Part shown: piece by piece, positions 14,691 to 62,503 of the stretch
Layout of the letters: every line of letters starts with the position of its first letter
How positions within the stretch are numbered: position 1 is the stretch's first letter
NCBI GenBank assembly: GCA_027922465.2
Contig: BQMF02000021.1
Coordinates: forward strand, 682,001 to 746,000
Length of the DNA: 64,000 nt
Direction of reading: 5' to 3'
Source: Turritopsis dohrnii
Lineage: Eukaryota > Cnidaria > Hydrozoa > Anthoathecata > Oceaniidae
Translations under genes and position numbers: made by a program
The notes under the pieces: model-generated
Databases searched by the model: none
What the model saw: only the letters and a program-made list of their open reading frames with translations
What the model was told of the DNA's origin: nothing

Positions 14691-17600
14691 TCAAACTAAT
14701 TCTTCTCGGAGGTACGCTCGATTAGTCAACCCAAAGTCTAAAGAAAAGATAGCAAAGATGAATTAATGGCGCCCATTTGGTTGAAAGACATATTTAAATT
14801 AACAAATTGCACGAACATATCTGTTTGTATTAATAAACTAAAACGTTTAGCATTTCGGCTGTTTTTTTCAACAAAAACAAGAAATTCGACCGAAACATTT
14901 TGTGGTCGCGATATGGTACATGTCAATAGCCGATGTAATGCCGTGTATAAGTTAGTGCCTTTGATCTGGTACATATCCCTTTCATTTGTAATATTGAGAT
15001 GAAAATTTGTTCCCAATCCTTAAATCTGAATGTGAATCTTCCTGCTTCTGAGAGGTTACATTTTTTACATAATCACTGTAAGTGCTTAGTTGATATACAT
15101 ATGTCTTAATGACTGATTAAGCGACTGTCAGTTGTCGAGGTTGGTAAAGGTCACTTGAATTTCAGATTGACTGAATTTCTTTACCTTTTCTGTTGCCATT
15201 GATGATATATAAATCTGAAATCGTCTCATTTTGATTTTCGGGTACAGGTGTGATCTGAATGATAAAGATTAAATGCTTATTATACATAGTTAATGCAAAT
15301 TTCTCATGAGGTTTCTTGATATACTTGAAATATGTAAGGTTACACTTATTCCCTCTAAGTTCTCTTTACCCAGATTATGGTCGAATAAGCAACGTTAGAC
15401 AAATGGACAACAACACGTTCAGTGGCAGATCTATGGCTAGTCATTAAAATCCAAGAATGTAAAAAATTAAATTCCTTTTCAGTTTTATCCTTAAGATAAT
15501 TAGCGCGTTTAACTTTTGTATTCCAAATAAGCCGCTTCTTCACTATTAACTTGGGCTGAAGCTTTGCATCCGCTTCTAGAGCACATAGCTATTACACGAG
15601 AAAGATCCTCAAATGGTCGCTAAAGGTCAATCAGCGAACTAAGTCTGTAGTATTTAGTCAATTAGACATTGATGGACTATGTACTGCTTAAGAACTGAAC
15701 ACGGAAGATTATTAGCTATTTGCATACTGGCGCAATTAGGTCCTTGTTTATAGAGTAAATTTGGTATCAATTTCTCTTACCTCAAACTTATTGCTTTGTC
15801 TAACCATCCATAAGATCGTCAGGACAACCAAAAAACCAACCAATGGGATGATTGCTACCACTAGGGTTATAACTAAACGATTTTTTGCTTTTGTTTTCGT
15901 GGTTGCGTTTACTACAGTTCTGATTTCAAACTCGTTGCATGAGTATAATTCCGAAAGAGATTTTGAAGGCGTCTGGAATGTCAATACCACTGATTTATTT
16001 TTAATATCTCGGAAAGTAAATGAGCTATTTCGGATAAGTTGGTGCAAATATGCAGCAGTATTCTGAATTGAATTTTTGTGTTGAATGAATAATGAAATAG
16101 AAAATTTATCATTTCCCCAATGGCAACTAACATTATCAGATTGATTTCGCAGTAAGGTTGCTTCTAATTCAAAGCATATTTTTCCTAGCATTGGTGCTAA
16201 TTCAGTCATATTTTCCGTAGCATTATAAAGGACATCAATTTGGAAAGAAAGATGACATTGGTAAGACTTTCGCATCTCAAGTGTTTTATTCTCAAACTTT
16301 TGAGAAGTGGTTGTCGGTTTTGTTGTCGTAATGTTTTCATATAGTTGCACAGTTGTTGTTCTAACGATTGCAGGAGTATCGAAAACAGCAACGTATCCTA
16401 AGCTTGAGCATCGACAGATAAAGTAAATATCTTCTGCTTTGATGTTGCAATATTCATCACTCCAATGGTTATCTTCCCATACGTGGCACTGTGAGTCAAA
16501 TAAAAAAAAAGTAAAGATTGTTCTAGATATTCTTATGACGGCCTGAACTAAAACAGAAGCATAAACAATTACGTCTCTTTTCTGCAAACTTTTGTTATTG
16601 CTGCTTACTAGTTCTTTAAATATCCGTTTTAGTTTACGATAAAGTATTTACATTAACGTAAATATGATATGCCAAATTTTATTTAGTAATAGCATGAGGA
16701 GAAAGAAAGAAGAGGTTTAGATGGGATGAAGGGAAGTGGAGAAAAACAGTTTTTGTTTCAAGACTCCAGAAAGGTCCAGAAAGGTCAATCAATCCCTGTA
16801 TGTCTTGCTACAAAGAAGACAGTACATGTTAGTTTCACATGAGAAGCAAATGGGAATGATATTAATAGCTTCAAATCCATCATTTCGAGCAGTGTTTGGA
16901 GGCGAGAGATTGCAAATTTAAGTAGCAGCAAAAGAAACACCAACCTAATATAACATTCCAGATTGAAAAGGAAACTACAGAACAATACTATACATTTAGC
17001 CTCGCTTCTGTCTGGTTAAAAAATATGAAAGAACGGAACATTCAATTACAACATGTAAATGATTTGACAAACAAATAAAAACAATATTTACAAATCATGC
17101 GTATGCCTCTACTGGAAAGCTCAAAAATTTGATCAAACATTTCACCCCGCAGGTGGTTTTATTAAGGAGAGTTTTATTAAAATATGTTTGCACAAGTTGA
17201 CATAAGAAAACAGGTAAAATATCTGTCTTACCTTTGGTCTGACATTGTTTGTTGCATTCACACGACGTGGAATCGTGATTTCAATAATATTTTCATTCTC
17301 TGAGATGTTAAGAAATTGAGAATGGGAAAGCAATTGTACACCAAAAACGTTTGATAAAAGAGAAACCTTGCTGTGGTTCTGACTGAAAACGTCACCTTTT
17401 ATCTGAAATTATCAATATGAAATTATAATTAAAGTATGGAGGTGTGTCAGTATGGGGGAGCTAAAGTCTATTTGTTTTTTATTTGTTTATGTCGGAAACA
17501 AGTCTTGTTTATAATGTATCTCGATTGAATTTTTAAGGATCTTGGTGAACACACAAGATCCTGCTTGATAAACGAACTTGTTTTACGTGTATTTACGTGT

Positions 17601-20600
17601 GAAAACTCTGGAATATGAGCAATTATGAGCACACCAGCCAGTGAGGAGATCAGATCAGATCAGATCAGGAGATCAGCACTTTAATAAACCATACTACCAC
17701 ACCTTAGTGGAAAGCTTCAGCTTTTGCCATTTATAGAATAAAATATAAAAGAACTGAGTTTGAGTTATGTGTTTTTTGTGTTGTCAACTATGTAATCATA
17801 ACTATCTTCAGTTATTACTGTTGTATCACACTTTGTAATACTTGCTACACTTTATGATACCTGCCACATTTTAGAATAACATCTGCCCAACTTTGTAATA
17901 ACTTTTTACAGTTTTTACATCCCGCATACTTCAGAAATAATAAAAAAAAGAAAGCCACGTGTAATCAAAATGGCGCTTAAACAAACCTTGTTCCCAGGAC
18001 GTGTTTTCAGTTTTGAAAAATATGGGGAGTGTCGCTTTATATTTTTCAAAAGCGAGAAAAGCTCTGGGAGCAAGGTTACTTTAAAACAGCTGATTAAGCA
18101 GTTAAATGGGTTATTTAAGAACTATTCATTTAAATTTTGGGTCGAATAGTAAGGAGTCTACATATTAATAGCTGATTTTCTGTCTGTTTGCCTGTTTGTC
18201 TTTAAAATGGTTGGTCATAGAGATTTCTTCCTATACATTCTTATATTCAGAATTTCAAGTGTTATAAAATGGTAGCATCTTGCATCACCTTTGCCAATTC
18301 CTAAATTTTAATTTTCAAGAACACTTTAGGTGACAACTGAATACGAGTGGAGAGCGTCACCACCTTGGCTGCTGATTAAGATTAAAATATGATCATGCTC
18401 AAAAAAAATTACAAAGTGTGACAGATGTTATTACAAAGTGTGGCAGGTATTACAAAGTGTGGAAAGTATTACAGAGTGTGGCACAGCAATTACTTTTAAC
18501 CATTTATGATGAAGCAGTTTTGGCCAATAAAAATCACTTCAAGTTATAATATAAATAATTAAATAACAAGGAACTAATTAACTTTGTGTTATTCATAACG
18601 GACATCGACTTTCAAAATGTTTTTCAAGCAAATAATGTTGGAACAATCTATTGAAATGACTGCCATAAGACAAGCAAGTAGTTAACTTAAAGTCATGAGC
18701 ATAAACTGAAACCCTAACTTGGTCAGAAATGATGAACAATATACGATTAGATGACTTTTTACAGTCCTAACAATGTATCGTTAACTGATAATTTATTCAT
18801 CTTAGATATCCAGTGATCATTTTCACTGCGCTTTGTGGCTTTGAAAGTTTTTTTTTGTTTTTTTTTTTTAATTACTCGCCTTACTCAAGGCCAAAGCCAC
18901 TACCAAGGAGTGGGCTACATATTCCGGATGTTCATCCCTAGCGTTAATCTCCCCGACTAGCCCTCAGCGGAGTTTGAACCCTCAATATTGGGTTCCAAAG
19001 CTCTACGCTTTAACCACTCAGCCACTACTGCATTAGTCAATATTTAAATATCAAGATATTATGTTTTTATCAAAGAATCTGAATCCTGATGAGCTGATGT
19101 TTTTCTTCATGGTAAGGACTTTATTAATGCGCATGATGACATAACCACTGACAGTCAGAAAGCAACCAAGAATAACCGCTTACCAAGACAGATGAAATCA
19201 CAAAACCGTTACACAAACCAGTTTCATTTGTGCATAACCGCGAATCCAATACGGTCTTAGCATATGCTGTAAACATTAACGTAACTTGTGATGGAAAGTG
19301 AAGATTCATATTCGCTATAGCCATTGATACTCTTTCTGAATAAAGGTAAATGTTCTCTGAACCTACCGACAAATAATTGTCAGTATTTCTGGCGACTGCT
19401 AACATCACTTGAGAAAGTGTTCTCAAGAATGTCGTTTTCTGTTCTCGAGCTTTTTTATCGTAAGTTACTGGGAATAAGGAGGAACTGTACTCAGTCACGT
19501 ATTCCTGGATCTAAGAAACAAAATGAGTTAATCCATAGTAAAACATGATGAGAACATGATGAGACACAAATTCTTTTTAAGCACACTGTCATGGTCTAAC
19601 CATCAAACACAGCCTCATTTTAAAGATCTTACAATTATTATAATTAATTCACTGTGGAGGAAGAGTAATAGGCTAATATTGTAATTAATAAAGAGATAAT
19701 AACACGTGGGAAAATCGTCAAAGTGAGCTGCGATGAAGAGCATATTTGTTGAAATAGTGTATACATTTCTATAGAAATACACTCTCTTGCAGTGGTTTTT
19801 CAACAATTGTGCCCACAGGAAAACGAGACAAATCCTGAGGTATTAATAAAAAGGAAATCTGGGAAATTTCACAAATCGAATTATAACAAGGATACCAGTC
19901 ATTGGCTTAAATTATAACAAGGATACCAGTCATTGGCTTAAATTATAACAATGATATCAGTCATTGGCTTAAATTATAACAAGGATAACAGTCATTGGCT
20001 TAAATTATAATAAGGATAACAGTCATTGGCTTACCCTGTCAGTGTTAAAATCTTCTCCTGAAGTTCCATCTTTCACTTCATTCACCGATGTAGATCGACG
20101 CAGCCTGTTCATCTGAAATATAGCAGTATAGTGGACATGAAAGAACATTCTATTGCCACATTACGTACAACCTTACTACGATCCCCAAAATTTCTTTTCA
20201 AATTTAGGGATCTATTAAAGAAGCATTGCGTTCAATTAAAGACATCTAGTTAATCATATTAAATATACTTTTCCTTACTCTGTTGATAATATTTCTTAAT
20301 CTTCTCTCAGATCGAGAATCATATCTAGACAAATAAAATCCTACAAAACTAATTTGTTTCACATTGTTATGCCGAACAACCAATCGATTAAAGTCCTTTA
20401 TAAACTTGCCCAAATAGACAATTCTTGACAATTGAAATTATCTTGTCAAAAGGAAATTTCAAAATGTTCTTCGACAATATTCGCCAAAAACACCTTTTGA
20501 AAATAGCGATAAGATTTTATTGGCTAAGTCATCGGCTTGTGCTATTAAGAATTTTGAAACCATTTCAAATGATAGTCATTAGCATCCACAGACCTGTTCA

Positions 20601-21459: not shown

Positions 21460-21519
21460 ACTCAATGCTGAGCTACTTTTCGAGTTAATGATCGTGGCGC
21501 CTGTACAATGAACAGGCAT

Positions 21520-25691: not shown

Positions 25692-25719
25692 CTTTCATTT
25701 TTATTTCTACTTGCAGTAA

Positions 25720-27512: not shown

Positions 27513-27515
27513 TTA

Positions 27516-29142: not shown

Positions 29143-29153
29143 ATTAAATTAAA

Positions 29154-42685: not shown

Positions 42686-45600
42686 CTAAGCCTTATGTTC
42701 AAAATAGGATGCTGAGGATAATTTCGGTAAAAAATTAGGCAGTGGATTTTTCTGTTTAAATTTATAACATTAGGGAAATTGTAAACATGAGTAACTGTCT
42801 CACATTTTGAAGTAAGCAATGCAACAGTCTAAGATCAATAAAACTTTTAATATATATAACAACGAATATTTGGTGAGGTGACAAGTTTCTACCGACGAAA
42901 AATTTATGCCGACAAAAAATTGTACCGACAAGAGTTTTTACTGATGAGGTAACTGAGATTGAGTTGGGAACAAGTCTTTGATTGTCTTAAGTACGACTTA
43001 AGAGGTCGTCATATAAATAAAATATCCATACCTGGTGGTGATTCCCTCATCTGATGGTAACTTGCTGCAGGCGATGGAGCAACCTGTATATACAGAAATG
43101 GTGAGATGGTTTTTAAAATACTCGTGGAAACATTGTACGTAAATCACAGTTTTTACGGATCGGAACAGGATAAGATCAGAACAACGTCCATTGAACGCAC
43201 AAGCAGCTATATCATTGAATTTTCTGGCGATTAGGAGACCGCAATAGTCAACGTTCATTGGTTAAAAATATCATCAACTCATGATCAACAGAAGAATCAG
43301 AAAAAAACAAGAAGTTGAAATTTTTCATCTTCTTCGAAATCTGTTTCGGATTATTCTGGATTTCCGCCAGTCTGCTTAATGATTCTTTATTTTGATCAAG
43401 TTTCATTTAAAACAGAAAAAAAATCAAAACAACCGCATGGTATTCTTTATCGCTCGGCCAATGGGAGAAGACCAGAGTCTTTTAAATGACAATAATTTTC
43501 AGAAAATGTGCAAATGCAGTTTTTAGAACTGTTTACTAGCAACCCACATGAATGTTTTCAGTGATTTTAATGAGTGTAATTGAATGTTCATATAAATTTG
43601 TAACACCTTATTAATAAATTGATTAGAAAGACATTAGTGCTACACCAGTAAATGTCGCAACCAACAGGATATGTCGCAATCAACAGTAAATGTCGCAACG
43701 TCGCCAGTAAATGTCGCAAATCAACAGTAAATGTCGCAAACCCAACAGTAAATGTCGCAACAGCAAATGTCGCACCAAAATCGATGATCAACAGTAAATG
43801 TCGCAAAATAGAAATCACTTTACCACATCCACTTATCAATGATTAATGTCGCCATTCGTTACAACAACTGTCTCAAAGTTAAAAACAAAAATGTCTGAAT
43901 TTTCTATAACAAATATCACAAGCCAGATAACTAAGGGAAAGAATGAAAATAGGAAAGGGGTTATTGAAAAGTTTTTCTTCATACACAAACTCAAAAAACT
44001 TCACTGTAATCTCGAAATAACTGCTATAAATATCACTTTCTGACGATTTATTCAGGCTTTGTGTGTAATGTTTTGCATACATGCAGAATGTGTTATGAAG
44101 TTGCAGGTGGCTTATTCTTTGTTTATAATCAACTGGTACCTAAGGTAATGCTCTCTAATTGAAATAATCATAGAGAGAAATTTTGAAGCGATAAAAATGC
44201 GACATTTACTGTTGATTATAAATTTGTGTGCGACATTTCCTGTTGATTATGAATTTCTGTGCGACATTAACTGTTGATTTTAACGTTAGAGAACGAACAT
44301 GATTTTTTTTGTTTTGCGACATTTACTGTTGAAATTGCGACATTTACTGTTGATTTGCGACATTTACTGGCGACGTTGCGACATTTACTGTTGATTGCGA
44401 CATATCCTGTTTATTGCGACATTTACTGGTGTAACAATTAGAAGATACGAAAAGTGAACAGTACGCATCGAGTTCTCCCCACTTACACGCCCGACATTTT
44501 TTCACGGCACTGAAACTGGAGGAACATTAGTTATGATGTCAGGTTCATTAACGGACTCCTTAAAATATCTTACCTTTCGTTTTTCACCTTTATTTTTCAT
44601 GACCAACACAACAGCTACAAGAACGGCGATACCCAGGAGTATGATGACGACAACCACGACAACTATTACGACTGTGTTGTCGTCATCATCGTCGTCATGA
44701 GGAGCTTCTGTCGGGGGAGTGTACGGACTACCGTTAACGAGAGCTGAATCGGTGACTGTATTCAGTTTAGTATTGTTCAAAACAACACTGAAATCGTTGT
44801 CGGTGACTTTTTGGGCGAACTTCTCGTATGTTTCGTCAGAAGTTGATGTGTCCAAGTCCAGGGTGAAAGTGACCACGATGCTACCGGATTTTACTTGACA
44901 GTCCTTGAAAATTGAGTCAATGTTAGAGATGAATTCTTTGAGATCTGTTTTCACCTGATCACAAATCGCTAAACGAAGCAACTCCGCGCTACCAGCAATT
45001 GAAACTGCTTCGTCGAAGTTTTTCAGAAATTTAAACTCCATTTTTTGAGGTTTCACACCGTCACCGTCACCGTCACCGTCGCCATCGCCATTGCCATTGC
45101 CATTGCCATTGCCATCGCCATCACCATTGCCATCACCATCACCATCACCATCACCGTCTCCATCGCCGTCACCATCGCCATCACCATCACCGTCACCATC
45201 ACCGTCACCATCACCATCACCATCGCCGCCGTTACTGCCGGTTGTTGTAGCAGTATCCCCATCTGAAGACGCCGTTGATGTCGAAGAAGTGCTATTCCCA
45301 GCAGCATTAGTATGTTCAATTGGTGTTGTTGTTGTTGCCATTGGTGTTGTGGTAGTGACTTCTTCGATGATAATCACCTCTGGAACTTCGAAGACCGCAA
45401 CAGCACCTTGCTTCTGGCACGAACAGGTGGCAAAACCCATATCATCAATAGAAGTATAGCAAAAGTCTGCATTCCATTCATCTGCAACCCACACATGACA
45501 CTATTTAAGGAATACCAGCATTTTAATGAACGTTATATGAAGAAACTACATTCTCAATAGTTACATTAACACGAGAAGGATTGCTCGTCCAAAAATGAGT

Positions 45601-48600
45601 TAAAAAATTATTCATAATCTGATTATCTTACTCGAGCAGTTCCTGTAATGTTATCGCTGCTCATTCGTAGTTTAAAAGAAGCATGACTAGCAACCATGTC
45701 TTCAGTGAACGCAGCATATGTTGCTGAATCGTCATCTTCACCAGCTGGGTTGAATAGTTGAAGGTGCAGCACATCAGTCAGTAGAATGGCGTTGGATGTC
45801 GGAGGTAAACTGCTGTAAATATCACCTTTGATCTGCTCAAAGGAAAACGTAAGACGTTGATGACAAAAGAAATTCAATTATCAAATAAACATCATTGTCC
45901 CAGCGAACAAATCTGTTGAAGAATCACTGCAAAGGAGTTCATTTTCATTGAAATATATATACAGTATTTTAATGAAAACACTCTTCGCAGCTTGGACTTT
46001 TTAAACAAAATGACCGTATGAAAGAAGCAATCTTTCTATAACGCTTTTTCTTTCAAACTTTCGATTTTTCAAAAAAATCTATCGTTGCATGCTAAGTGAA
46101 ATATCGCTTATTGCTACATTACAAACATCAAGTGTCACTCAACGACGTTTTCCACTTCTACCGAGTCTTTTAAGTTAATCTCTCGCATGTGTTGAAACAT
46201 GAAATTGTACCGAAAATAGAAAATGATGAAGAAAAAACAGAAAATTATGGTGAAAACGCACCGCTGTCACGACATAAAAGAATCCAGCGCATTCTTCGAT
46301 CTCCGAACAGTTCCAGAAGTTGTAGGTCTCCGCAAATTCATCAGAGAATGAAATAAAGTTACTGTCGTATGCAGTAGCATATTCTCCAGTTACATTGGAG
46401 ATTCGTTCTGCATAAAGGCCAATGTTATCGGTGGCAATGTTTATTGGGTCAATCTGTATGGCATCACTGATTGATTTGCCACAGTATTCCAAATTATCAA
46501 TGAACGCCTGTTTGCTCTGAGCATCTTCATCATTGTAAGATAGTTCGAACAATATATTGTTGTGAGATTCAATGAAGTTCGCGACCTGGAACAAAAGGAA
46601 AATTTTATTTTACACGAAGTCTTGATAAGAGCGACAATTCGGTGAGTTACTTTATTATAGTGATATTATAGCCATGTTATATCCTATGATGATGAATAAT
46701 AATCTCAAGTTTACAGCAACGAGAACGCCTTCACCCCACAAAAGTGTAAATGGAGAAGTCAGTGCTAATCAATCGACTGGATTAAAAAATACGTTTTTAG
46801 GACCAGCACGACCTTGTAATTACGGTTTGTGTTATTATAGCTGTCCGTGTTCCAGCCGATCATGTCAAGTCTCTCCATTCCGAGGCGCTTTAAAGGCGCA
46901 ATGCCAGTCATACGAGCCACACTGATTGCAACGGATAATGATGGTTTTACAAGTATAATAGATTAATTAATCAAATTAATCAAGCTAAACAGACTTTAAA
47001 ACGATTTAAAGGTGTGGAGTTAAAGGGAGAGCGTACCATGTGTGAATTTCATAAAAAATTATTTGTCGACAAATAATTCTTAGAAGTAATTCTTAGACGG
47101 TAAGCATTATCTGTTTAATCCTATAAGTGCAAATTTGGACACATTCGTTGAAAAATCACCGTGGAGGAGTGCATTTTCATGGAAAACACACAAACATGCA
47201 CACCATTTCAACTGTAATACACTTTGTCGCAGTGACTTTAACGTTTTTATATATTACCTCTTCATAGGACATCAATGTTTCAGTCTCCTCTTCAACAACA
47301 GCTCTTCGTTTTCTTTTTTCTTCGTTCTCACTCTATGTTGAAATAACAAAGAATGAATGTTTTACAAAATATTTTCCAGTCCTCTAGGCTATTACCAAAC
47401 GTGCTTAAAAAATCAACATCGATATTGAAAAGATACATACCCAACTCTCTATCAACCTCATTATATTTAAATTTTAACAGATGAAACTGATCATTTTTAA
47501 CCAGCAATATAGCGTAATCAATTCTCTATTAATATAAGGAGAAACTCAACGAACAGCTTACCACACGAGAACCATAATGATTAGCTACAACTTCTTTTAC
47601 AATTTTCGTTGCCCGTTCATCACCTACTTTCTCTGTGCTCGATTTCAGCGCGTCGGAGAAAGTCTTTAATGGCGCATTTTCGCTAATTCCTCCTAGCTAA
47701 AAGGCCAGATACACAATGCAGTAAATTCTATGTAGCCAAAAGAACTAAAGCTATATCAAAGAGAAGCTATGTCAATATAGTTGGATCGTGACATTGAAAT
47801 TTTATAAGGAATCTGATTGAGGAAAACGAAAATGCTAGTTCTATCGATGGTTTCCACGCAGATGATATTTACAGTCTTGTACAAACTTCAAATCTCTTGA
47901 GTTTTGTAACAGAAAATGATGTCGCATTAAATAATAATGCCGAATGTGATTTCAGAATGTTGGGAACGGAAATTTTAAAGCTGTTTTTTTAAATGAATAT
48001 AACGAATTTCAAAATAATTTTTACATCAATGGAAAGCCATTTTCAAGTTCTTTCCACTAGTATATGTTTGTGAAAAATGAAAAGGTGATTTTTGGAAAAT
48101 AAAGAAAATGCCTTGGAAAAATGTAATTAAATCTTAAAAGGTAACATTTATTTAGAATTTAATAATAATAATTAAGCCGAAGAATGAAGAATGAAAAAGA
48201 CATTATATTGAAATCACGGTGTGCATTATTTTCTAATGCGACATTATTTTCTATTATAGTTTCTCTGTTATTAATAAATCAAGACTTGAAGAACATCCTA
48301 ATGTGCTATAACAAAATATATAACAAATTATAACTTTCAAACGGCCACAATTGAAAAACAATGAGCAAATACAACATCGCTAGAAAAACTGCATAAGTTT
48401 TTCCTTGTGTTTTAGAGATCAAAATAGCCAAAACGTGCCAAAGAAATATTGCGTTTTTACCGTTAGAGCTATATCGTCTCGTTTCTGGTTGATATCATCA
48501 ATTGAACAGGTAGAATTTGCATTGGTAGTAGGGTCGCATTTTATCAGTACCGCCTCTTGTGCCAAACTCAAATCGTCTAAATTTACAAAACATAAAGAAG

Positions 48601-51600
48601 GTTAAAATCCTCTTTCAGCAAATCTGATTAACTGAATACAAAATGTTGAAGTATTGTTATACCAATCAAAAAAGCAGTTTGGGAAATTTTCTAAATTACC
48701 ATCAACGTTGAATTGTAGAAGAAATGGTTCACTTTGGTATCAATTTGGTTTTAAGAGCAAAGGGTACTGATCGCTACTAAGCATTATCAGTTTTCACACT
48801 ACTTACTTGGTATGTCATCGTAATTTCCGGCGGCAATATCCTTATTGGCTTTATCGATAGTACTGCCCAGTATCTCTTCTTCGGATAATAAAGATTTGAA
48901 GACTTTTACGAAAGCTTCGACTCTGGTTTTGATGCCAGCCTTATTTTTTATAACACCAACGATTTTGAGCATGCTTTGGTTGTCCTTTTTGCCTATCGAA
49001 AAATTGTGTGTTTTAGTTATTTAGGATAAAAAATAGTTCTACCGAAACAAGAAGAAGAAAATACAATAATTTGTAATTCAGCGGTTCTTACGTTTTACCG
49101 CCGTACCGTTTTTCAAGTAAAAAATATCACACAAATCTATAAGCTTTGTTATCACTCAGAATCCACCCTCACTTCCGTTTTTGATAAGTTCTTTTTAAGT
49201 ATGTAGTAGGGGATAACACGAGATACTTCCATGCAATCTATATTTTGCTATGTTTGTTCAGTCATCCACAGTAAAATAAAGGCTGCCAAGTCTAACTAAT
49301 GTAATGAAAAAATCCTACCTTCACATATTCCGTCAAACGCAATTATATCATTGGAACTGAATTCCTTCAATATTGGCTTTTTCCCGCATAATGGTCCGGC
49401 TTGGTACTCCAAAGCATCGTTAGGGTCGTCGGTATTACAACTGAAAGACACTCTGAATGTGGTGTTCAAAGCAATACCTTCCTTTGGATCCACGGACATT
49501 GAACCTTCAAAAAACAAAATTGAAAAAATAACTGGATGTGTCATAAGCTTTTCAAAATTTTATTAGAAGCAAATGATGAGCAATCAAATTTATGATTACG
49601 CTCGTTGATAACGACAAGTTGTTCAGCACTCAATTTCATGACTTTTTTATACTTGCAGACACATGTGACAAAAATGGATGACCATAGAGAAAGGCGATCA
49701 CATTACGAATGATTAACACTTCAACAGAATCAATGCTCTTACAGTCTTTCGGTGGTGCTTTCTTTTCGAGTGTAATATATCGAATTGTCTCGCCAACTGA
49801 ATTATTTGCTGAAATTTTGAATAAGTATTTTTGCTCTGACAGCAGTTCTTTAAGAATTGTGAACTTCACTTTGTTAACAACTTTCTTTCGGATGATCTGT
49901 TTTACGATTTCCTTCTTAACAGCTCCAAAATCAAGATCACTTCCATAACCTAAATTGAATAATCTTGAATATTGTTTCCAATAGAGAGCAATAAACAAAT
50001 TCAACGTAATTAGTGTTAATTTATCAGCTAAAAATTTGCATCTCGAATTCTCGATAATTCCATTTTTGGCAGGGACTCTCTTGAGCAAACACGCTGGTCC
50101 AAGTAAAACTCAGATATTAGTAATTTGAAGCAATGGCTGTCGGTTTCAGTTTAAAACACTCCGAAAAACAAAACCTGCACATGCAAGATGTAGAACTTAA
50201 GTAACCTGTTAATAAAATTTGATAAAAAATAAATTCAAGCTAAAGAAGAAAAGGAACAGAATTACATAAAAAAGAATTGAGATCGGATGCAGAATAAGCA
50301 TTAGAAAAAGAAGTCTGAGAAATAATCATAAGTAAAGAATAAAGTCTAAGCTCATCGAAAATAAGACTAAAATCATCTAGAGATTCTGCATTAAAATAAT
50401 TGTTGTCTTTATAATTGTAGAGTCACCAGAACGGTTAAAACATAAACAATGCAAGTTTTTTAACATATACATTTATTAAAGGAAGCTTTTTGTGTCATCA
50501 GGTTAAAATGATAATCTTTTTTTTTAAGCTGGTGATGTGTCAGTCAGACACGAAAGTAGATATCATAACGAGAAAAGACCGCTTGTATCTTATCCAATTA
50601 GTGCCACACTCACTTGTAAAGTTGCTTCAGTATCTTATGTAACAGTTTCTGACAAACATTTTATGCATCGTGAAAGAAAGCATTTTCTTCTATTTTCATT
50701 TTTGGTAGAATATATACCAGATAAAGATATGCTGTCAAAAGGAATTACGGTTTGCTAAAAAAATTGCACTAACTTGTGTCGTCATCTTCATCCAGACTTT
50801 CATCCGTATTTTCAATTGTGATGTCATTTGGTGAACTATGCTGAATAGTAGCCACCACGCGGAATTTGTTTGCCATTTCTTTCCTTCTCACTTTGATTTC
50901 AGGTGGCAAATGTTGACTGACATGAACTTCTATAGAAGCTGAGTTTGATTGGCCATCAGTTGGGAATGCCTGGAATTCGTATCTATAAAGTCATACATAA
51001 AATTTTAATTTAAGGCGTTCTTGAAATTATCATAATCATAAATAAAAAAATGGTTCAGTGATATTAAAAAAATTCCTTAGCTACAACGTTTACTAAACGC
51101 CTATTATACGTTCAGTACAAACTATCTATATGACGAGAATTACAGTAACTCTTCATCAGATTTATTTCAAATTAGGCGACTTATTATTGGGATAAAACTG
51201 TCATCATATAATTGCCATTATAATGAATAAACCAATAAATCAAATCAACACATTGAAATCATACCCACTTTAGATAATGAAAGGAATTTTTAAAAAAACT
51301 TTGCCAATTGCAAAGACAAGACTATTTAAAAAACGAAAACATACTTTTCTCCACATCGCAATTGAGTCGCTGGATTCAATTCAATAGCGTCACCATCAGG
51401 TAAAACCAAAGGTAACATTGTTAACTCATCTAGGCATACAGATTTCTCAGTAGCTGTCTTTTGAAAGCATTTCCATTTGATTCCAATTTTTTTCGATGCC
51501 TTGATAATGTACTTAGCAGTACTGCATTTAATAGTCTTTTTCCCTGAAAGACATCAGACAATCCATCAAAACACGTAAAACATGGGAAAACAGAACTCTT

Positions 51601-54600
51601 TTTCAAATGGACCAAAAAGCAAATTAGCGAAAACGTACAATAAAATTCGCCAGCTTACCTTTTAATTTTAGAAGTTTATTTTCAATGACAACATGTTCTT
51701 CTGCAGAACAAACACTTCCAGTGACAGATTTAGCAGTAAATCTTACTGTGACATTCTAAGAAATGAACCAATTAAATTTCAGAATGACAATCTAATTTCA
51801 GATCCTGAAATTTTTGCCTTTAGAAATACAAACCTCTGCTCCAGATGGATTTTGAAATTCCTCATTTTTCAGTTTATAAGAAACAACTGCTGCATTAAAC
51901 TTCACAACGATAGGATCTTTATTTTCTCGTAATATGGTAATATTGGTTTGTTCAATTTTGTTTTCACAGTTCTCACTTAATGCGTTACCTAGAAGGAAAT
52001 GATAAACTAGTAGGGCAGTTGAAATAGTGATAATATTAACAGATGGTTATAATAAGATTCAAAATATATAAGGAAGTTTTGAAGAACGTGTATATCTACT
52101 TATAATAATCCGCAATCGTGTGTAACACATTTAACTTGGTAAGTGTGAAAAAAGACTGGGGACGAAATGTTTCTATGGAAAATTCAATACGGCATCTTTA
52201 GAAAGTGAGTAACTGAGTGTACTGTGTGCACATCCACGATTAGTATATGCTCCTCCGTTTTGTTATTTTTGGTTTCGCACTGAAAATCTGCCGAAAAACG
52301 TCAATGGAGAAGCGCAAGCAATGCAATGTTTTTCGTTCGAAATTGGTTAACGATCATTTTGTAGCAGTAAAAACAAAAACAAAAAACTTCACGAACACGA
52401 AGATAGTTTTTTTTTAAAACGAAGATCTTTAATTTTATTGTTTTAGTCGTTTTCGGAGAAAGATCGTATCGTAAAGATTGAATTAACAAGTGTAAGTAAA
52501 TTCACGGAAGAACTGAATCAAAAATCAAAGTTTTGAGACTGTTTTCGTCTTTTTCCATAATTCATTTTTGACTGTTTGGTAGGCTGGAACTATACTCATG
52601 ATAATTTAATAACTTTTTCTATGTTTGCTTTCCGATATGGATAAGAAATCAAGTTTGTGTTTTGTTTTATTTTGCTTTCCTTTTTTGTTTGTGTGTATGT
52701 GTAGCATTTTGTTTATTATGATATGGTTTTCATTGCTCATGGAAATCTTCTTTTTTTTATATATATAGTTTAAAATAATTACGAAAGAGTTTAACAAGTC
52801 TAAATGCTTGAGTGTTTTGGTAAAGAACAGACTATTAAAATAACGAATGGTATCGAATCTTAGTGGATAAAGAAGCAACATTAGCAGGTATAATTCCGCA
52901 TATCATTTACATGGCGTTTTTATTCTTCTTCATAACATATCTTTTCTTTTTTGACTGTTTGATAGGCTGAAGCTAAACTCATGATCTTTTAATAAATATT
53001 CCCTGTTCCTACTCATATGTTTGCTTCAAGTTTGCGTTCGTTCTTTTAGTTTGCTTTTGTTTGTGCGTATATGTAGCTAAATATGTTTTTATGATAGGTT
53101 TATTATTAATAGAAATCTTCTTTTTTAGGTAAAATTAATTATGAAAGAATATATAAATTCGACATTGTAATATGAAGGGTGTTTGGTAAAGAACTGACTA
53201 ATGAAATAACGAATGCTATCGAATCTTATTGGAGTAAAGAAGCAACGTTAGCAGGTATAATTCCGTTTATCATTCATATTTCCTTTGGCGTTTTTATTTT
53301 TCACTACACGCCAAGGCAGCTTTGTTTACCACCCATTATCATTAAAGACTGTAAGAACAAAATTCCCACCTATTGCCCTTTGCTATGCGCCATCTTAACC
53401 AACAAATACAGCAGCCACTTCATCCATCGTGACATGAGGTTTTTTTTGTGTCTGTGTCAAAATCTACATTTTATGTTTCGTAATCACCTCTTTCTCTTTT
53501 CACGATGAACTGAAATCTTACGACATTTTAATAATGACGTTAGATTAAAAAATAGTGCCGCCTCTGCGTAGCCTTACGTCAAATATGTAGGAAAAACCGT
53601 TTAAAAAAAGTTAAATATTTCACTCCCTAAATTAGAAGTGGTATGCACAGCGCCGATTATGATAACTTTTTATTTCTATAAATGTTCGACACGGGTGTGA
53701 GCGATGCGTCGTTTTGAGAAATGCAACAGTAAAAAGTTTTTACACGGGATACTAGTATATATATATAACGGAAGCATATTTTCCGACAGTCAAATATAAT
53801 CAGAAAGGCAGTTTCTTTTCAACTCTGGACGTAGAATAAAGAAGAGCGTGTGGATGCGTATTAACGGAATTATTTGCATGTGCGGTGAATGTTATTTAAA
53901 GGAGGCAGAGGTTTGGAAATGTATATGAGGCGCTAACAGTAGCGTGTGTTAAGCTTTCAATTCAACTTTTGTTTCTCTTTATTTAACTACAATATACAAT
54001 AGAGAGCAAGTTCGGATCAGCACTAAATCACTTGTCCGATTAAAACAATTTTGTACGGCCTTGACCCTCTAGGCTTAGTGGCTATGCATTGGGTTGAGCA
54101 TTTTAGAAGCGCATCCAGCTGGTCACATTGTTACAAAATCATGTTCGAGATATTAAGATGTCAACAAACTCTTATGAATACTTATTGTATTCTACTTCAC
54201 AGAGTACTGATAATCGCCACATGATCAATTGCTCCAAAGAAAAACGCTGTGTTGTTTTCATTTCCCTCGATAAGGAAGAGTAGAAAGGAAGTGAATATAT
54301 CTTAAAGATTTAACCTACATTGAATCTCAAAAAACAAATCGTTTTGATTAAAGTATGTTTGTTATATACGTTATGGAAAATTTTAGTTTAAAGATTTTTG
54401 TTTAGTTGGAAATGGTCATTTCAGTTTTTTTTCCATAAATCATAATAATTTCAAAAAAGAGAAACGAAAGGATATGGTAAATTAAATGCTAATACCCAGA
54501 AAAAAACTCAAAATAAGGTTACCTTTGAAAGCAATTTTCTTTTTAAATTTTCTCAACTTAATAGAACATGTTAGAGCTGTATCAACTACAGTAACTTTTT

Positions 54601-57600
54601 GAGTAGCGGTACAGTTTTGGCCATATTTGTCAATTGCTGTAAGCGTGAAATCAAATACACGACCACTGGTGCCCCATCTATAAAATCAAATTGAAATCAG
54701 ATTATACATCATGAAACTCCAGAAGTATAACAATTTCATAGTAGAACCAGATAATTTCCCGAAAGAAAAATTTGCATTTCAAGCGTTTATACCAATTATA
54801 AAAGAAAAATTTTTAGTCTATTTTTTAAACAACATTTTAGCACTTTGGTAAATCATGCTTAAGTTTTTTTGTGACGCTGATTTTATTTGTTTCATTCTTC
54901 AGACTTAAATGAGCTCCACTAGTAAACACTTCATGTGTGATGTGTGCATACTGTAAGGACCTGCTAAAATAATTTTAAATTTTGAATTGGGACATTTACA
55001 ACATAAAACGGCTTAATTAACCTTAATTAAGATTTTGCTATCCATGTTTAGTCAAAGGTACATTTTTACTTACAAGTCTCGACGATCATCTAGATTCAAC
55101 AATGTTTGCTGATTTGATACTAATTCATTGAGTTTATCTAATTTCGCACCATCTGGGTCATCACTGGGATTTTCATTGCCATGATATGCTATTTTCCACT
55201 TATATTGTTTTGCAATTGCATGTGCTTTCAATGTCAATGCTTGACAAGTACCTACCAAAAAAAAAAATTCAATCAATACACTGTTTTCAACTACAAAACA
55301 TTACAGTGGCATAATGTTTGGGTGATGACGATGGGTGCGATCGGTCCTCCTTTTCGTAATCAGCTGCCCTTTTTTCAATAATTTCTTCCTTTAGTACAAG
55401 TAATTAATTGTCATAACAAACTTTTAAAACATCATTTTTTTAACATCCTAGTGTAAATTTATTATAGGGTTTCGATGAATCTAAACAAAGATTCAGTCCA
55501 TTCGTGAGAACAGGAAAACTTTCTGATAAGCAATGTCACTAGTAAAGCAATGAAGAGCAAGGTTTTTACTCCAAAAGCATTAGTTGACATATTAAGTGCA
55601 ACGTTTTGTCTTTTGATTGTTTTTTGTTTCAAAAATAAAATACATTCATCTGCCAAATCTGTCAAAAGGAAACGAATTATAATATCCAAAAAAAAAGAAA
55701 AATTTCATCCAATAAGGATATACAATACTTTCAAAATTTGCATTATTTTATAATTACGACTATTTTTGCATAAGCACATTTCAAAATATCCTAAGTTTGC
55801 ATGACCCAATGAAGATTACAGCTGATGTTGCTCCACATTTAGCAGATTACAATATACTTCAATACAATTTAATGTTTACAACAATGAAAACAGCAACTAT
55901 GAAAAAGGACTTAAAAATGTTTTGAATAACGAAAATATCCAAGTTACCTAAAATCAAACCATGAAAAGATACTTACTGACAAATTCTCTTTTTTGGATTT
56001 TACAAGAAAAAGTTGGAAGTTTCACATCAACATTAGTACAACTTCCAACTGAGGTGCTAACTTCACCACGACACTGAAAACACTTATCCGGAATACATAT
56101 CTTGTTATTTTCTACTGCAAATGACGAGCTAACCTTAATTGCATTTCTAAACAAATATAGAACAATTTGTTAATCGTGCTTTTTCTTTGAAAATTCACAA
56201 CTTTTCAAGAAAATGATTACAGCAAGAATTTAGTATTAGCTTCAAGGTAGGTCCAAACAAGTTGTTGAACGAATAATTTTGCTAACCTTGAAAATTTTGC
56301 AAATTTTTCACATGCCTTATCTTTCGACAATTCTATTGCCTTGTCGAATATAATCTTGTGACTGTACATTTTGCTTGATATGGGTTCCGCCATTAATGGC
56401 ATGGGCTTGTTCTGACAAGCTATTTGTAATGTTTGAACGGCAGACTTTCTGCCACAACTTCCAACAATGATTTTCAGTTCACCAGTGGTACTGGGGACTT
56501 TACAAACACAATGGAGCTTTTTCTCTTTGTCAAGCTTGGCATAAATTTTCCACATACTCTTATCCGTTTTGTAAATACAATGGTAGTTTTCGTTTTGATG
56601 GAATTCACCCTATATAGTCAAAATGATAATTAAATGCAGAAACTTCCAAGTGGCATAATGTTCTTTGTCCAAAAAGCTAACATTTAACGATTATGAATTA
56701 TGAGAAAAAAATTTCTCTTTACCATACTTTTACCATAAACAGTGTTAATGAAAGCATATAGCATACCTCAAACTCTAAATGAATCATAGAACCTGATGCA
56801 GCTGTAGTAGGTGAAAATGAGGTGATAGGAATCTGGTCATCGGCTTTTATCGTGATCAGTTGATTTCCAGTTATAGAATTACCATTTTTATCAATGCAAT
56901 TCAGATTGTATTGCCCTACTTTGCAACCTTCACCCATATAACGCATGACTGGACTACATAAAGATCTGCTTTCTCCAGATGCTTGTGTACAGTACTCATC
57001 CAATTTGGTGGTAACAGGGTCCTTATTGAGCTTGCATTCCTCTCCAGTGCTATAGAAATAAAGCACAAAACTTAGTGAATTAATTAAAGATGCAATGACC
57101 AAACCATGAAAACATGAAAACTGCCCTTTGTTGAAAAACCATTTACATGCGCAATACATATATTTACTTCTTTTGAGGGAGACAAGTATTATTCAGTTAA
57201 TGCATTATCAAGACAAAAGGGATTTTACAAACTGAAAAAATATTTTCATTCTCTAGCATATCAAAATTAAAAGGTACATTAAGAAATGTTATTCAATATA
57301 TCAATGAGAGATGGATTGCCGTAAAATTTTTTGTTTACTAAAAATAAATAGCATTAATTCATCAAAAATTTAATTCACCTGTAGAGATTCGAAGGTCACT
57401 GGTTTTTGAGGTCAAACAGGCTCTTCGTTTTTAAATTGTTGTTAGGGTTAGAATTTGAAAGTTTTAAGTTTTTATGAAAATGTCTTTTTTTTTCCTCTTC
57501 TCTTTGATGGAAAGCACCAATTTGTCTTGTTTCATAGTTCCTGTCTTTGAAAAGGTTTTTAAAAAGTTTATCGATATCAAGTGATGACAACCTAGTTTTG

Positions 57601-60600
57601 TAATTTTTCCTACTTGATTTTCTAAACACGTGTTTCATCAATTCAAAATCACTTATCATTTTATTTTTCTTGTTACAAATTCCATACTGTGTCAAAGAAA
57701 AGGTAGATTCCAAAATTGCAATAATTCCCAGGTTTCAGCAAAATCTCCACTTTTTAAAACTGTATTCAAAAAAATCTAGAAAGGACATGATTTCCCACCT
57801 GTCCATTAAGACACAGCCCATATCTTTTGCATCCACCTTTTTTATTTCTTTACTGAAACAAATCTGTAGACGTTTATTTGCTTGTGAGATATAAAACGAA
57901 AGTGGTGAAATACGTTCAATTGCACCAGCAGAGCATTCTTGCGTAACTACTTCACCAGGTTTGATGCATTTACCACAAGAAAATACTAGAAAATATCAAA
58001 CACAAGCATTGAGAAAAAAGATTGCAATCTTTATTTCATAATTCCATAATATAAAAAAAAACTTTTGGAAATTGTATCACAATATTTAGGACTTTGAGTA
58101 TATACAGAGTAAAACAGAAAATTAAGTGTACCATCTTCTCTTTTCTTTCCTGTGCTTCCACCAAAACATACAGAAGTTTCTCCATCTTCACATGCAAGAG
58201 GAATTGCACGGTCGATCCCGCAGCTCGTATCATTATTACAATCTGGTTTTATTACTTCACCTTCTGCCAGGCACTGGCCACATTTCAGTTGATGTTTGCA
58301 ACATTTTTCACGACCGTCCTCGATATACTCTTTTGAGTCTGCTATGGTGTTCCCACTCTTACCCAACATACAAACACCGCATCCTGAAAAAAAGTAATGA
58401 AGAAAGAATTAAACATGATCTCAAAAGTCTGGGTTGAAAAGAATCAACACTTTAATGAGTATGGTTAGCTATTAACTGTATTAACATTCATAATGTATTA
58501 CTAAAAATCAAGATTTTGTGAATTTTAACAGTCAAACAACAACTACTTTGTATTTTATTATTTGAAAAACAATGAAAAAAAGTTTTTACTATCTAAATAT
58601 GCATCCGATTCATATTGACCATCGCATTTCGGCTTGCATGGAACGTCAGTACATTTACCACATCCATCTATTTTTTTGTTCCTGCCAGCCACTCCTTCGC
58701 AATCTCTCCTTAAGACCTGTGCTTTAACAGCTTCTGAGAAAGCTTCACTTTTAATTAAATCTGGTTCTTTGTAACCAACAGTGCTTCTATCACTCCCATC
58801 CCAAACATGAAATTTAAACCACGGGATGCTGGGTAAAGGTCCGTCCTTGGCACATTCAAACTTTATAACACAGTCCAGATTTAGAACCAAGACTTTTTTA
58901 ACTTCTTCCAAGTTTTCAATATCTGCAAATTCGCCTTCCAGACATTTCCATTTAAACGAACCAACTGCTGGTTTAAAAAGGATATTTGATATAGCAATAC
59001 CAGAAACTTTCATTCGTTTATCTTCTAAATTAATCAGTTTGCTACCAATTTTGTTTTTATCTTTTTTTGTTCCAATTGCATTTTCCTGTATCGGAATGTC
59101 CAGTAGTGTTTTAATAGTAAATCCAATGTTGTCAGATTTTTTTTCAGGTATGGCTGGAGCAAACATTTCTCTGCTGGACGGCCTAGCCTTCCTTTCGGTG
59201 CTGTTGATATGGACAAATAATGGGATTCTTTCTTGTTCATCATCTTTTTGATCACTTATTTTTCTGTTTATAAGTGTATTCATACGCTAAATTTAAAACA
59301 AATATAGCTATTCCTACAACAACACTATTCTGCATAAATTTAAATTAATTCACGCTCAGGAAAATCAATGCAAATTGATATAATACTTACAATGCAACCC
59401 ATTCGGAAGAACACAGTAAAGTTCTTGTATGTATCGCGTAGTAGATAGAACTTGATGGAATCAAGCTTGTCAAATAAAACTGGCTTTGTTTTGAATTCAT
59501 CACTTCTGAAAATGTGTTCTTCATTATTACGGATGATTCCGATTTTTACTGAAAATAGAAAACATTACCATGAATGAGAAGTTTATCAACTTCGTCACCA
59601 ACAAATAGTGTCACCTAATAATATAACATGGAAACAATGAAAGTCAAAACATGTTAAAGAAATGTCATAGGCGTATTCAGGATTAGTAAAAAAAAGTGGA
59701 GGAGCAGAACGTTATGATATTTCTTTTCAATCCTAAGTTTCCACTAGCTTTATTTGCATGTCTTTGTTTTCTAAACTCTTCTTCACAAATGACGGAGCTC
59801 TAGCTGCTCCTTTGAATGCATCAACATCAAGTCCCTTGATTGTACTTCGAAATATGTCAACACAATTTCGTGAGAATATAAAATTCCTCATATACACATC
59901 ACAAAAGCCCTTTAATGTGAATTTCGTTCATCTAATGCTTAAACAGTTAAAGGAGCTGAAATACTTATGTTTTTATTGGTACCTTACCTTCCTCTCCGTT
60001 AACAACATCTACTATGAACAACCCTGTTTCTTTACACATTTTAACCATTGGACACACTTGAGGAATGGAGGGCAATTGTAGTGATTGGAATTCTTTGATC
60101 TAAATTACATATAATATAAATGTGAGACATGGACATGAATTGGTTCAGCTGGCAAGCATTTTATTTTTAGTCGTAATGCTGTAATGTGGATATTGATAGT
60201 ATCAACATCATTATAATAATAAAGCTGCCATTAAATTTATATAGAGTAGACTCTCTCATTCAAAGACTCAAGGGATCAAACAAACATTCTATTGATAGAG
60301 AGTTTGAATCATGATGGATCATTTACAAAGAATTGTTAGCTGGACATGAAATTTATTCCAGTTAGAGAAAGTTTAAATTATGAACAATGAAATTATAGAG
60401 ATTAAACCGTATTATAAAACTGATTTATCCTACCTGGTTCAATGCTGGTTTGATTGCTTTCTGGACTGCATACTCAGCAATATTTATTCTTGCTGGTTTC
60501 ACGGATAGTTTCGGCAGCTTGATATCATGAAGTATCAAAGTAAGCTTCATAGTAACTCCTGACGTTGTAACAGCAGTCACATTAATTTTTTTTATTGCAC

Positions 60601-62503
60601 AAATTTTATCCATCACATACCTGTGTCAAATGTCATATAAAATAAGTTTGATATCATTCGAAGCATGAAAGATGAAAGAAGCCTGGAAGAAAGTAGTAGT
60701 TTCAGATGCAAAGTGTTGGATCTGTGCCACAAGTCTTTTGAAAACAAGATCTTTGTAATATTAGGAAAATAGAACTAAAAAATTTAAGTGAAACAATAAT
60801 ACAATGAAACAAAATTGTGGCTAGAAAACTAAATACCAAACTTCTTTTCCACCCGAACTAGGTCAATAACTAATCAGAATAGTATCTTGATAACTAAGTT
60901 TAAAAAGAACAACGATGTATCACATTGAAGATGTCACTGTCCTGAAAATGATTTAGAAAATAAATCGAAAATTAAACACTATCATACACTTCGAATTTTA
61001 ATGTTATGAAGATGCTACTCGGATAAAAACCACTAAATACCATAAATACCTCAAAGAACACGTTAAGTCAAGTTTTTGGCCTACAGCAATCATCACGTCT
61101 TTAGCCCCTTTGCAGTACCATCGATCACCTTCAGCTATTTTATCAACAACCATGGAGCTAATGCGTTCCAAGTTCTTGTTCATAAATTTCAATGCCTTAT
61201 AAACGTATTGAGTTACATCATCTTCCTTGAAAATCACCCGTTCCAGTCTTTCCATCAATCTGAAAAGAAGAAATTAGTATTAAGTTATTGATGTAGATGG
61301 AGATCCGAATCCAAAACAAATTCTCCACCATGATTAGTCATATCGAAAGTGAAACAAAAATATGAAATTGCTCTCGGGCGCGTTTAGGGTGGTATTTCAG
61401 CGTCATACATTCACTTGCAAATCGGGGCGGAGGTCGGTTCATTTAGGAAAACAGCCTCAAACTAAGTGATTCTAATCCTACACAAGATGCTTAGAAGACT
61501 TGTTGGGTGATGAAACAACGAGCCAAAGATTCCTTACGTTGTTTCAGGTCCAGGTTCAGGTTCAGGTTCAGGTCCAGGTTGAGTCATTGGTTCTCCGCTT
61601 GGTAAAGAATGTGTTATAGGCGTAGTTGGAGGAGAGGTTCTTCTATCTGGATGAGTTGTTGGGTTTTCGCTTGGTAAAGAATGTGTTATAGGCGTAGTTG
61701 GAGGAGAGGTTCTTCCATCTGGGTGAGTTGTTGGGTTTTCGCTTGGTAAAGAATTGTCTCCCTCCCGGATAGTAGTGTCAGTGGTGCTCCGTTCTTCATA
61801 CGATGGAGTTGTCACACTTTCCTTTGGTTGTCGTTGTTGTTCTATTTGAGCCAATGCAAGTTGGTGAGCCAACATAACAACTGGAAAAAAAAGAAGAAAA
61901 ATAAAGAAACAGAACAATAAGAAACGAAATTTAACAAAATGATCTTCTTTAAAGTCTATTACTACCCCTGCGGCGGGCAACTTTGTTGACAAACCGCTGC
62001 GAAGGATGAAATTCTAACACACTATTATAAGAATGCCCTTTATCGCAGTATATTTTTGACGATTTTGCCGACTGGGACAGAACATGCTGAAAAATGATAG
62101 AAATACTATCAAAGAGGCTGTTTATATGAGAGGCGGGATGGAACGTTTGCCGGGCGGGACGGGACAAAAAACGGGATCCCGCCTCCATTGAAGTTTTCAT
62201 AAAAAATCGATCTCGTGTTTACATGAAGTTAATGTCAGTAAAAATTTTTACCTGGATTACTATTCTTACATATTTTTTGAAGTCAAGAGAAATTTATTAC
62301 AACTACAACAAAAACAAAAACATTTGCTTAATTAGAAAAATCAAGGGTTTGAAAATTGAGATGGATGGAGAATTGACACATTGTTTTTTTGAAGTTCAAC
62401 TCGGTGAAAAGTTAGGATATCCACGATGCCAGTTTGTCAATAATCCCTAAGTATAATGTAAAGAATACATACTTGACAGAACAATAAATTTTTTAAAATC
62501 CAT
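42686..62503 (-). CDS. Gene 2: REJ, GAIN/GPS and SEA-like single-pass surface protein (28 exons)
   Basis: Exons: 62503-62473, 61880-61538, 61259-61050, 60620-60434, 60099-59988, 59548-59391, 59286-58590, 58383-58132, 57985-57799, 57049-56767, 56609-56221, 56146-55977, 55251-55074, 54677-54523, 51988-51834, 51755-51659, 51543-51345, 50982-50774, 49949-49743, 49504-49319, 48992-48807, 48576-48461, 47696-47562, 46585-46262, 45832-45632, 45500-44574, 43083-43032, and probably 42711-42686. All junctions hold phase; about 2123 residues. A signal peptide ([10 protein letters not shown] spliced to [11 protein letters not shown]) is followed by a Pro/Thr repeat region. Next come unknown domains, Cys-rich blocks ([24 protein letters not shown]) and a REJ-like region of about residues 950-1530 ([19 protein letters not shown]). 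Then come GAIN (about 1570-1790), GPS (1790-1826; CHVW...[12 protein letters not shown], without the cleavage triplet), a Gly-Asp linker (1880-1937), a SEA-like domain with GSIVV (1995-1999) and a membrane helix (2065-2089). The first 26 exons are well supported; the last exon has competing acceptors. Confidence 0.82.
43641..44433. mobile_element. 793-bp MITE whose 119-bp inverted repeats are themselves tandem arrays
   Basis: Both ends start TACACCAGTAAATGTCGCAA (right end read inverted) and continue with units of CAACAGTAAATGTCGCAA and variants (GGATATGTCGCAA, CGTCGCCAGTAAATGTCGCA). The arms match for about 119 bp with roughly six differences. More isolated AAATGTCGC units occur just inside each arm. 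The centre is non-coding. It sits in the gene 2 intron between the GPS/SEA/membrane exon and the first tail exon. No target duplication is evident. Confidence 0.88.
45056..45227 (-). repeat. Hexanucleotide repeat encoding a Gly-Asp linker in gene 2
   Basis: About 29 tandem GGN-GAY (rarely GGN-AAY) codon pairs on the minus strand keep the gene 2 frame and encode (Gly-Asp)n with a few Gly-Asn. It lies between the Thr-rich stretch after the GPS and the SEA-like domain. Other frames give Ser-Pro or Met-Val repeats and are shadows. Confidence 0.93.
45910..46000 (-). repeat. Fold-back MITE family, copy in a gene 2 intron (46 kb)
   Basis: It has family-like halves TTGAAGAATCACTGCAAAGG and CACTCTTCGCAG around ATTGAAATATATATACAG, but is degenerate. 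It lies in the intron between gene 2 exons 24 and 25. Confidence 0.45.
47140..47240 (-). repeat. Fold-back MITE family, copy in a gene 2 intron (47 kb)
   Basis: Outer parts GTTGAAAAATCACCGTGGAG and ACTTTGTCGCAGTGAC pair with the family ends. It lies in the intron between gene 2 exons 23 and 24. Confidence 0.5.

Follow-up and report, generated by a model that had tools for sequence, protein, structure and literature searches.

Two neighbouring Turritopsis dohrnii genes share a terminal exon block with a degenerate GPS motif and a putative juxtamembrane SEA domain

Two genes ending in the same exon series

The window analysed here is a stretch of 64,000 bases (C21:682001-746000) from the hydrozoan Turritopsis dohrnii; the genome searched comprises 435911712 bases in 891 contigs, which are given C-numbers. 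The minus strand of the window carries two genes, gene 1 and gene 2, whose exons were modelled from genomic sequence alone and have predicted splice borders. According to the initial annotation, the two are paralogues with a common intron skeleton, each ending in a GAIN exon, a phase-0 IKGD exon and a phase-0 exon which starts at the GPS cysteine and runs through a linker, a SEA-like domain and a membrane helix. This series is present in both genes, and all three exons are phase 0 on either side:

19184..19510, minus strand: GAIN exon of gene 1; 109 codons, phase 0-0, AG/GT borders (acceptor 4.0, donor 3.6)
17232..17402, minus strand: IKGD exon of gene 1; 57 codons, phase 0-0, AG/GT borders
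15781..16488, minus strand: GPS-to-helix exon of gene 1; 236 codons, phase 0-0, AG/GT borders
46262..46585, minus strand: GAIN exon of gene 2; 108 codons, phase 0-0, AG/GT borders (acceptor 9.4, donor 4.8)
45632..45832, minus strand: IKGD exon of gene 2; 67 codons, phase 0-0, AG/GT borders
44574..45500, minus strand: GPS-to-helix exon of gene 2; 309 codons, phase 0-0, AG/GT borders
44715..45053, minus strand: putative SEA domain of gene 2, assigned from a structure model and a family profile; G-S codons at 44885-44880, in KSGSIVVTF

When joined, the terminal blocks of the two genes align with 22.7% identity over 220 positions (E-value 2.8e-16), in agreement with the proposed old duplication. 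Compared piece by piece, the Smith-Waterman score was reached by none of 2000 shuffles for the GAIN exon, by 3 for the IKGD exon, by none for the GPS and by 38 for the SEA part. The shared exon skeleton is real. Used as a query against the whole genome, the GPS-SEA exon of gene 1 retrieved six places, namely, itself, its allele, gene 2 with its allele (E-value 8.9e-5), C267 (0.0037) and C60 (0.9). The internal order of this exon is the same in both genes: in gene 1 (16488-15781) a GPS-like motif is followed by a linker, a SEA-like part (16134-15886, with K-S-V-V) and the membrane helix, and in gene 2 (45500-44574) by a Thr-rich and Gly-Asp-repeat linker, the SEA domain and one membrane helix. 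In the gene 2 exon, PF11857 (DUF3377) matches the helix region with 37 bits, over its cut-off, and PF22807 the Gly-Asp repeat, under its cut-off; both matches are probably effects of composition.

Further members of the family and copies of the terminal block

The initial annotation proposed looking for more members, and the genome search delivered two. The SEA-helix part of gene 2 led to C103 (locus L039, E-value 0.038), and C103 as a query led to C16 (E-value 1.1e-18). In C103 the GAIN exon has 121 codons and the middle exon 55; the GPS exon begins three residues ahead of the first Cys, and a SEA-helix exon follows. The C16 series starts with an exon bearing KRKRR/A and continues with GAIN and middle exons, a GPS exon that begins precisely at CHRW and, again, a SEA-helix exon. 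In both, a stop codon is reached after the single helix. When C103 was compared with gene 2, the score was reached by 0 (GAIN), 3 (GPS), 0 (SEA) and 55 (middle exon) of 2000 shuffles; in the comparison with gene 1 the corresponding counts were 0, 4, 602 and 272. Judged by these sequence similarities, the family has at least four members in T. dohrnii: gene 1, gene 2, C103 and C16. A phase-1 intron separates GPS and SEA in C103 and C16 (read by eye; the C16 donor is weak), whereas genes 1 and 2 lack it; this, together with their neighbourhood, points to genes 1 and 2 as the closest pair. C267 was considered as another member and rejected: its reading is split over two frames, part of the GAIN exon is missing, and it was counted as decayed. 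Among the Tyr motifs in the tail exon of C103 (L039:2086-2306) is NPVY; these motifs could be adaptor sites.

Parts of the terminal block have been copied more widely. A 922-residue piece of gene 2 was searched against the genome, with 49 of 79 candidates scored, so that the number of places is a lower bound. Its first 640 residues matched only C21 or C64, the contig of the other haplotype, while the terminal block matched on nine more contigs (C494, C342, C49, C267, C19, C293, C288, C173 and C46). Stop counts from this search were not used, because even the rows from gene 2 extend into its introns. The SEA-helix query, which lies inside one exon, gave eight further rows on seven contigs with 50-81% identity, six of which contain stops. 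C288 and C173 have no stop in their short terminal-block matches and may be intact. Where copies were compared, introns and downstream flank had been carried along, at about 70-88% DNA identity, so the copying took place at the DNA level and not through mRNA. Gene 1 itself could be an earlier outcome of such terminal-block duplication, provided with a front of its own.

Degenerate GPS motifs

HxS/T is the self-cleavage motif of the GPS and is required, although cleavage can fail even when it is present (PMC13062082). In all four members this motif has been lost, with Gly at the position of the nucleophile: S-L-G in gene 1, K-Q-G in gene 2, Q-S-G in C103 and K-L-G in C16. Of eight ordinary GPS loci in the T. 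dohrnii genome, four matched the pattern script, all four with HLT (two of them identical). The Pfam GPS profile (PF01825) scored 20.9 bits on a 53-residue piece of gene 1 (cut-off 22.5, E-value 5.3e-4) and had no match in gene 2 or in the GPS exons of C103 and C16, which are linked to the GPS of gene 1 through pairwise similarity and exon position. Across the genome Pfam GPS was found at 51 places, none on C21. GPS motifs without HxS/T can thus drop under the Pfam cut-off, as the genes of the window are not among these places. The start of 36 of the 51 matches lies at profile position 8-15, as if an intron split the GPS motif at those ordinary loci; in genes 1 and 2 the border instead falls at the first Cys.

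The sequence following the GPS also departs from familiar arrangements. Seven membrane helices were not encountered in the exons resolved: the terminal exon has a single hydrophobic run, and in C103 and C16 the stop comes after it. Nor did we see the 11 helices and PLAT domain of the polycystin-1 pattern, since gene 2 has one helix within 45500-44574 and no PLAT match in the pieces scanned (sequence below 44487 was outside the scan).

The SEA-like domain and its G-S motif

Modelled together with gene 1, the SEA-membrane part of gene 2 gave a first structure model with a predicted local distance difference test score (pLDDT) of 50 and a predicted template modelling score (pTM) of 0.25. Folded alone, segment 45053-44715 of gene 2 was predicted as strand-helix-helix-strand-strand-helix-strand (pLDDT 56.7, pTM 0.48), with G57-S58 within the turn that joins strands 2 and 3. 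In SEA domains the strand 2-3 loop is the cut site, via self-cleavage at GSVVV/GSIVA or via furin (PMC6954182). The motif reads GSIVV in gene 2, GSIIV in C103 and GSVVA in C16, so G-S-[IV]-[IV] is kept in three of the four members; gene 1 has KSVVL, with K-S in place of G-S. At two other loci, C232 (L067) and C8 (L068), open frames of 917 and 2364 residues terminate in one helix preceded by a SEA-like domain, which has G-S-I-V (GSIVV and GSIVI, respectively); the long frame of C8 is Ser/Thr-rich and mucin-like.

A family profile was made from five loci (gene 2, C103, C16, C8 and C232; gene 1 was excluded) and compared with SEA domains recognised by Pfam. PF01390 occurs at nine other places in the genome at E-value <= 1, four of them over the cut-off, and three served as the target, the fourth, which has a stop, being omitted. 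The profile scored 29.0 against these three domains. In 200 column shuffles the mean was 9.7 and the maximum 18.1, with none of the 200 reaching the observed score, and the reversed profile scored 10.4. The SEA-like part of gene 1 matched the profile weakly, in the same register. At first, the entire stretch of gene 1 behind the linker was taken as SEA; it was replaced by a shorter segment after NKSVVLTF had been seen aligned with KSGSIVVTF, a choice that favours the match and bears on the counts given above for gene 1 (38 of 2000 shuffles against gene 2, 602 of 2000 against C103). As to the initial assignment of SEA to both genes, it is supported for gene 2 by the family profile, while for gene 1 it is weak.

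Fronts and tails of the two genes

Upstream and downstream of the shared block the following features were delineated:

47562..62503, minus strand: front of gene 2; about 22 predicted exons with a signal-like start, Pro/Thr-rich and Cys-rich parts and the REJ domain, borders predicted
47204..47332, minus strand: exon of gene 2 with furin-like KRKRR/A; phase 0-0, immediately upstream of the GAIN exon
44487..44509, minus strand: candidate tail exon of gene 2, weak; leaves phase 2
20035..20112, minus strand: candidate exon of gene 1 with furin-like RLRR/S; phase 0-0, upstream of the GAIN exon, weak acceptor (1.7), donor 5.7
15185..15254, minus strand: candidate tail exon of gene 1, weak; leaves phase 1, zero substitutions between haplotypes

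In line with the initial annotation, gene 2 has a front bearing a REJ domain: PF02010 scored 34.1 bits on the spliced piece (cut-off 25, E-value 1.6e-8), with the strongest signal in exons 49504-49319 and 48992-48807. On a single open frame the score was 21.9 bits, and the rise upon splicing supports the splice join. The proposed number of about 28 exons for gene 2 is also plausible, as an independently built chain has 28, doubtful tail pieces included. The REJ domain was seen in gene 2 and not in gene 1. Pfam had no match at E-value 1 in the first 655 residues of the gene 2 model. A protein search with residues 560-1490 found no homologue at E-value 0.01 among 7988 candidates scored, and one with the SEA-membrane part none at E-value 0.1 among 970; both depend on shared 5-residue words, and distant relatives could escape them. 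In the PDB, a sequence search with the 922-residue piece of gene 2 yielded nothing, and the best rows for SEA parts had E-values of 0.13 or worse.

Directly upstream of the GAIN exon, furin-like motifs are present in all three members readable there: KRKRR/A in gene 2 and C16, and RLRR/S in gene 1, the latter by its candidate exon only (C103 is outside this count). By motif match, both are candidate furin sites.

The outer ends of the models held up less well. For gene 1 a short signal-peptide front had been proposed; we looked for such an exon and found no convincing candidate, and what can be said is that no clear copy of the gene 2 front exons lies within 15001-44400. Just upstream of the gene 1 GAIN exon, at 19764-19799, KTTARECISIEM resembles the end of gene 2 exon 47332-47204. 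The E-value of this likeness, 0.06 among 26 queries, is at chance level, and no in-register GT donor follows. At the 3′ side, the common phase-0-to-1 tail exon was not upheld, the two weak candidates leaving different phases, and the final exons of both genes were not confirmed. Just below gene 2, at 43638-44436, there is an insertion of about 800 bases whose ends are minisatellites in opposite orientation (CAGTAAATGTCGCAAC and its reverse complement). It is not present at the corresponding point of C64, C49, C342 and C267 and is therefore taken as an insertion resembling a miniature inverted-repeat transposable element.

Haplotypes and neighbouring sequence

The other haplotype of the window region is C64:100001-150000. 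Twelve blocks of more than 200 bases align between the two, ten of them at 93.9-99.4% identity and the remaining two at 90.7% and 80.3%. All six terminal exons (three of each gene) are open on C64, the only length differences being +3 and -6 bases. For the 5′ exons of gene 1 the comparison is uninformative, because the haplotypes are near-identical across 19300-24000. The front exons of gene 2 at 57799-61259 differ far more between haplotypes than its 3′ exons do, with many nonsynonymous changes; in exon 59200-58659, 34 of 542 bases differ, affecting 19 codons nonsynonymously and 13 synonymously. This divergence could be old polymorphism.

Between genes 1 and 2 there are a Mutator-like transposase frame at 33535-33957 (PF20700, E-value 7.3e-18), a DDE_Tnp_1 frame at 23852-24265 (E-value 6.3e-6) and, at 29142-32570, about four tandem copies of a unit of about 855 bases, one copy of which is found on C267. 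Another tandem repeat, at 5816-6743, has 7.2 copies of a 128-base unit at 95%. Two open frames on the plus strand at 9742-11094 have weak Git3 and 7tm_1 matches under the cut-off and probably belong to a gene for a G protein-coupled receptor (GPCR). Elsewhere in the genome, contig C880 (L027, L028) has an end of TTAGGG-type repeats and a mitochondrial-type nad4-cob-cox1 arrangement with a frame-shifted cox1 (a nuclear copy or an error); further along it are frames resembling a Polinton-type element. The cytochrome b frame of C880 shows 100% identity to T. dohrnii records.

A proposed self-nicked joint behind a dead GPS

We consider it somewhat more probable than its opposite (roughly 55%) that the tandem genes 1 and 2 belong to a T. 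dohrnii family of surface proteins, most likely single-pass, in which GAIN/GPS is dead and SEA serves as a self-nicked joint. The terminal module of each member would consist of a furin-like site, a GAIN domain with a GPS unable to cut, a linker and, next to the membrane, a SEA domain followed by the helix. Furin may trim or nick the front, and GAIN would act as an uncleaved, force-bearing spacer. By analogy with SEA biology, the SEA domain would nick itself, and non-covalent contacts would hold the ectodomain until pulling or binding releases it. With K-S rather than G-S, gene 1 would be an uncut member, and different fronts would offer different ligands on the same release joint. The likeliest role would be that of a contact- or force-sensitive adhesion receptor. 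More tentatively, and with a little less than even odds, self-cleavage may have passed from GAIN/GPS to a SEA domain between the dead GPS and the membrane, fronts being swapped through repeated duplication of the terminal block, which would amount to a natural domain swap of a force-separable receptor joint in a hydrozoan family.

Several observations weigh against the self-nicked joint. Pfam SEA (PF01390) had no match in gene 1, gene 2, C103, C16, C8 or C232. Confidence in the gene 2 SEA model is low, and fold searches with it retrieved no SEA entry among the 50 rows listed by each program, the rows being generic ferredoxin-like arrangements. With the motif masked, the family profile scored 17.5 against SEA, within the range of the shuffles; SEA homology of the family is supported by the profile comparison, yet leans on the motif. 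The gene 1 assignment draws on register and topology. Besides, the tail exons of genes 1 and 2 may hold a further helix, at odds with a single-pass protein. Finally, the six terminal exons differ between the haplotypes by 10 nonsynonymous and 4 synonymous codon changes, with three more codons touched by an indel, and show no sign of strong constraint.

Some of these points would also suit a structural stalk in which neither GPS nor SEA cuts itself and the adhesion receptors are shed, if ever, by furin or ADAM-type proteases at the SEA-like domain, as in Notch or protocadherins. Gene 1 without G-S and SEA domains diverged beyond detection by Pfam speak for such a stalk, and SEA-like domains without an autoproteolytic site do occur in other receptors (PMC6586460). 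What it leaves unexplained is the persistence of G-S-[IV]-[IV] in gene 2, C103, C16, C8 and C232 at about 25% identity, and we regard the stalk as doubtful. That gene 1 is no working gene but a silent or decaying terminal-block copy is unlikely. Fragments of the gene 2 terminal block do lie on nine more contigs, stops interrupt most of the further SEA-helix rows, no 5′ end was located for gene 1 (with a possible exon remnant at 19799-19764), and five of its eight scored haplotype codon changes are nonsynonymous. Nevertheless, both haplotypes keep its three exons, 402 codons in all, open, with a single 3-base difference in length, and the exons have stayed open at 23% identity to gene 2, a divergence much greater than that of the 50-81% fragments. 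Least probable, and quite improbable to our mind, is that gene 2 is a degenerate relative of polycystin-1/REJ proteins which lost its channel part and partners another channel subunit, gene 1 being a remnant duplicate. The REJ match over the cut-off in gene 2 and the polycystin-1-like succession of GAIN and GPS-like parts behind it would fit such descent; the SEA domain and single helix behind the GPS do not, nor does the lack of PLAT in the gene 2 pieces scanned, and C103 and C16 carry the module independently and stop after one helix.

If the self-nicked joint is correct, a dead GAIN and an apparently live SEA follow one another here, which raises the questions of whether joints of this type can replace one another and what an intact GAIN does when no seven-helix receptor lies behind it. 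PMC6954182 names GAIN and SEA as the sole domains known to its authors to be cut and yet stay together. The surface proteins of this family also evolve fast and belong to a species in which rejuvenation is studied, although nothing ties them to rejuvenation.

Comparison with known systems

In the literature searched, which excluded most subscription journals, we found no description of GAIN/GPS followed by SEA and one helix. The adhesion GPCRs ADGRG6/GPR126, ADGRF1 and ADGRF5 likewise have SEA and GAIN in one ectodomain, and their SEA is cut by furin or at G-S (PMC6954182). However, in adhesion GPCRs such as GPR126 the SEA precedes GAIN and seven helices follow the GPS (PMC6954182), whereas here the SEA comes after a dead GPS and before one helix. 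Polycystin-1 and suREJ resemble gene 2 in having REJ and then GAIN-like and GPS-like parts, but continue with many helices and PLAT after the GPS, whereas here HxS/T is lost and SEA and a single helix follow. Among cnidarians, PMC4890752 describes a coral PKD1-type protein that combines WSC, PKD, REJ, GPS and PLAT. SEA-like domains next to the membrane serve as proteolytic switches, and in Notch and other proteolytic-switch receptors such a domain lies behind a structured N-terminal neighbour (PMC6586460), as proposed here. In Notch this neighbour is not GAIN, and the SEA-like domain is without an autoproteolytic site. Membrane mucins and dystroglycan have SEA and one helix and are not known to carry GAIN/GPS or REJ. 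With their juxtamembrane SEA, G-S motif and one helix they match the end of the T. dohrnii proteins, which likely contain the same kind of release joint.

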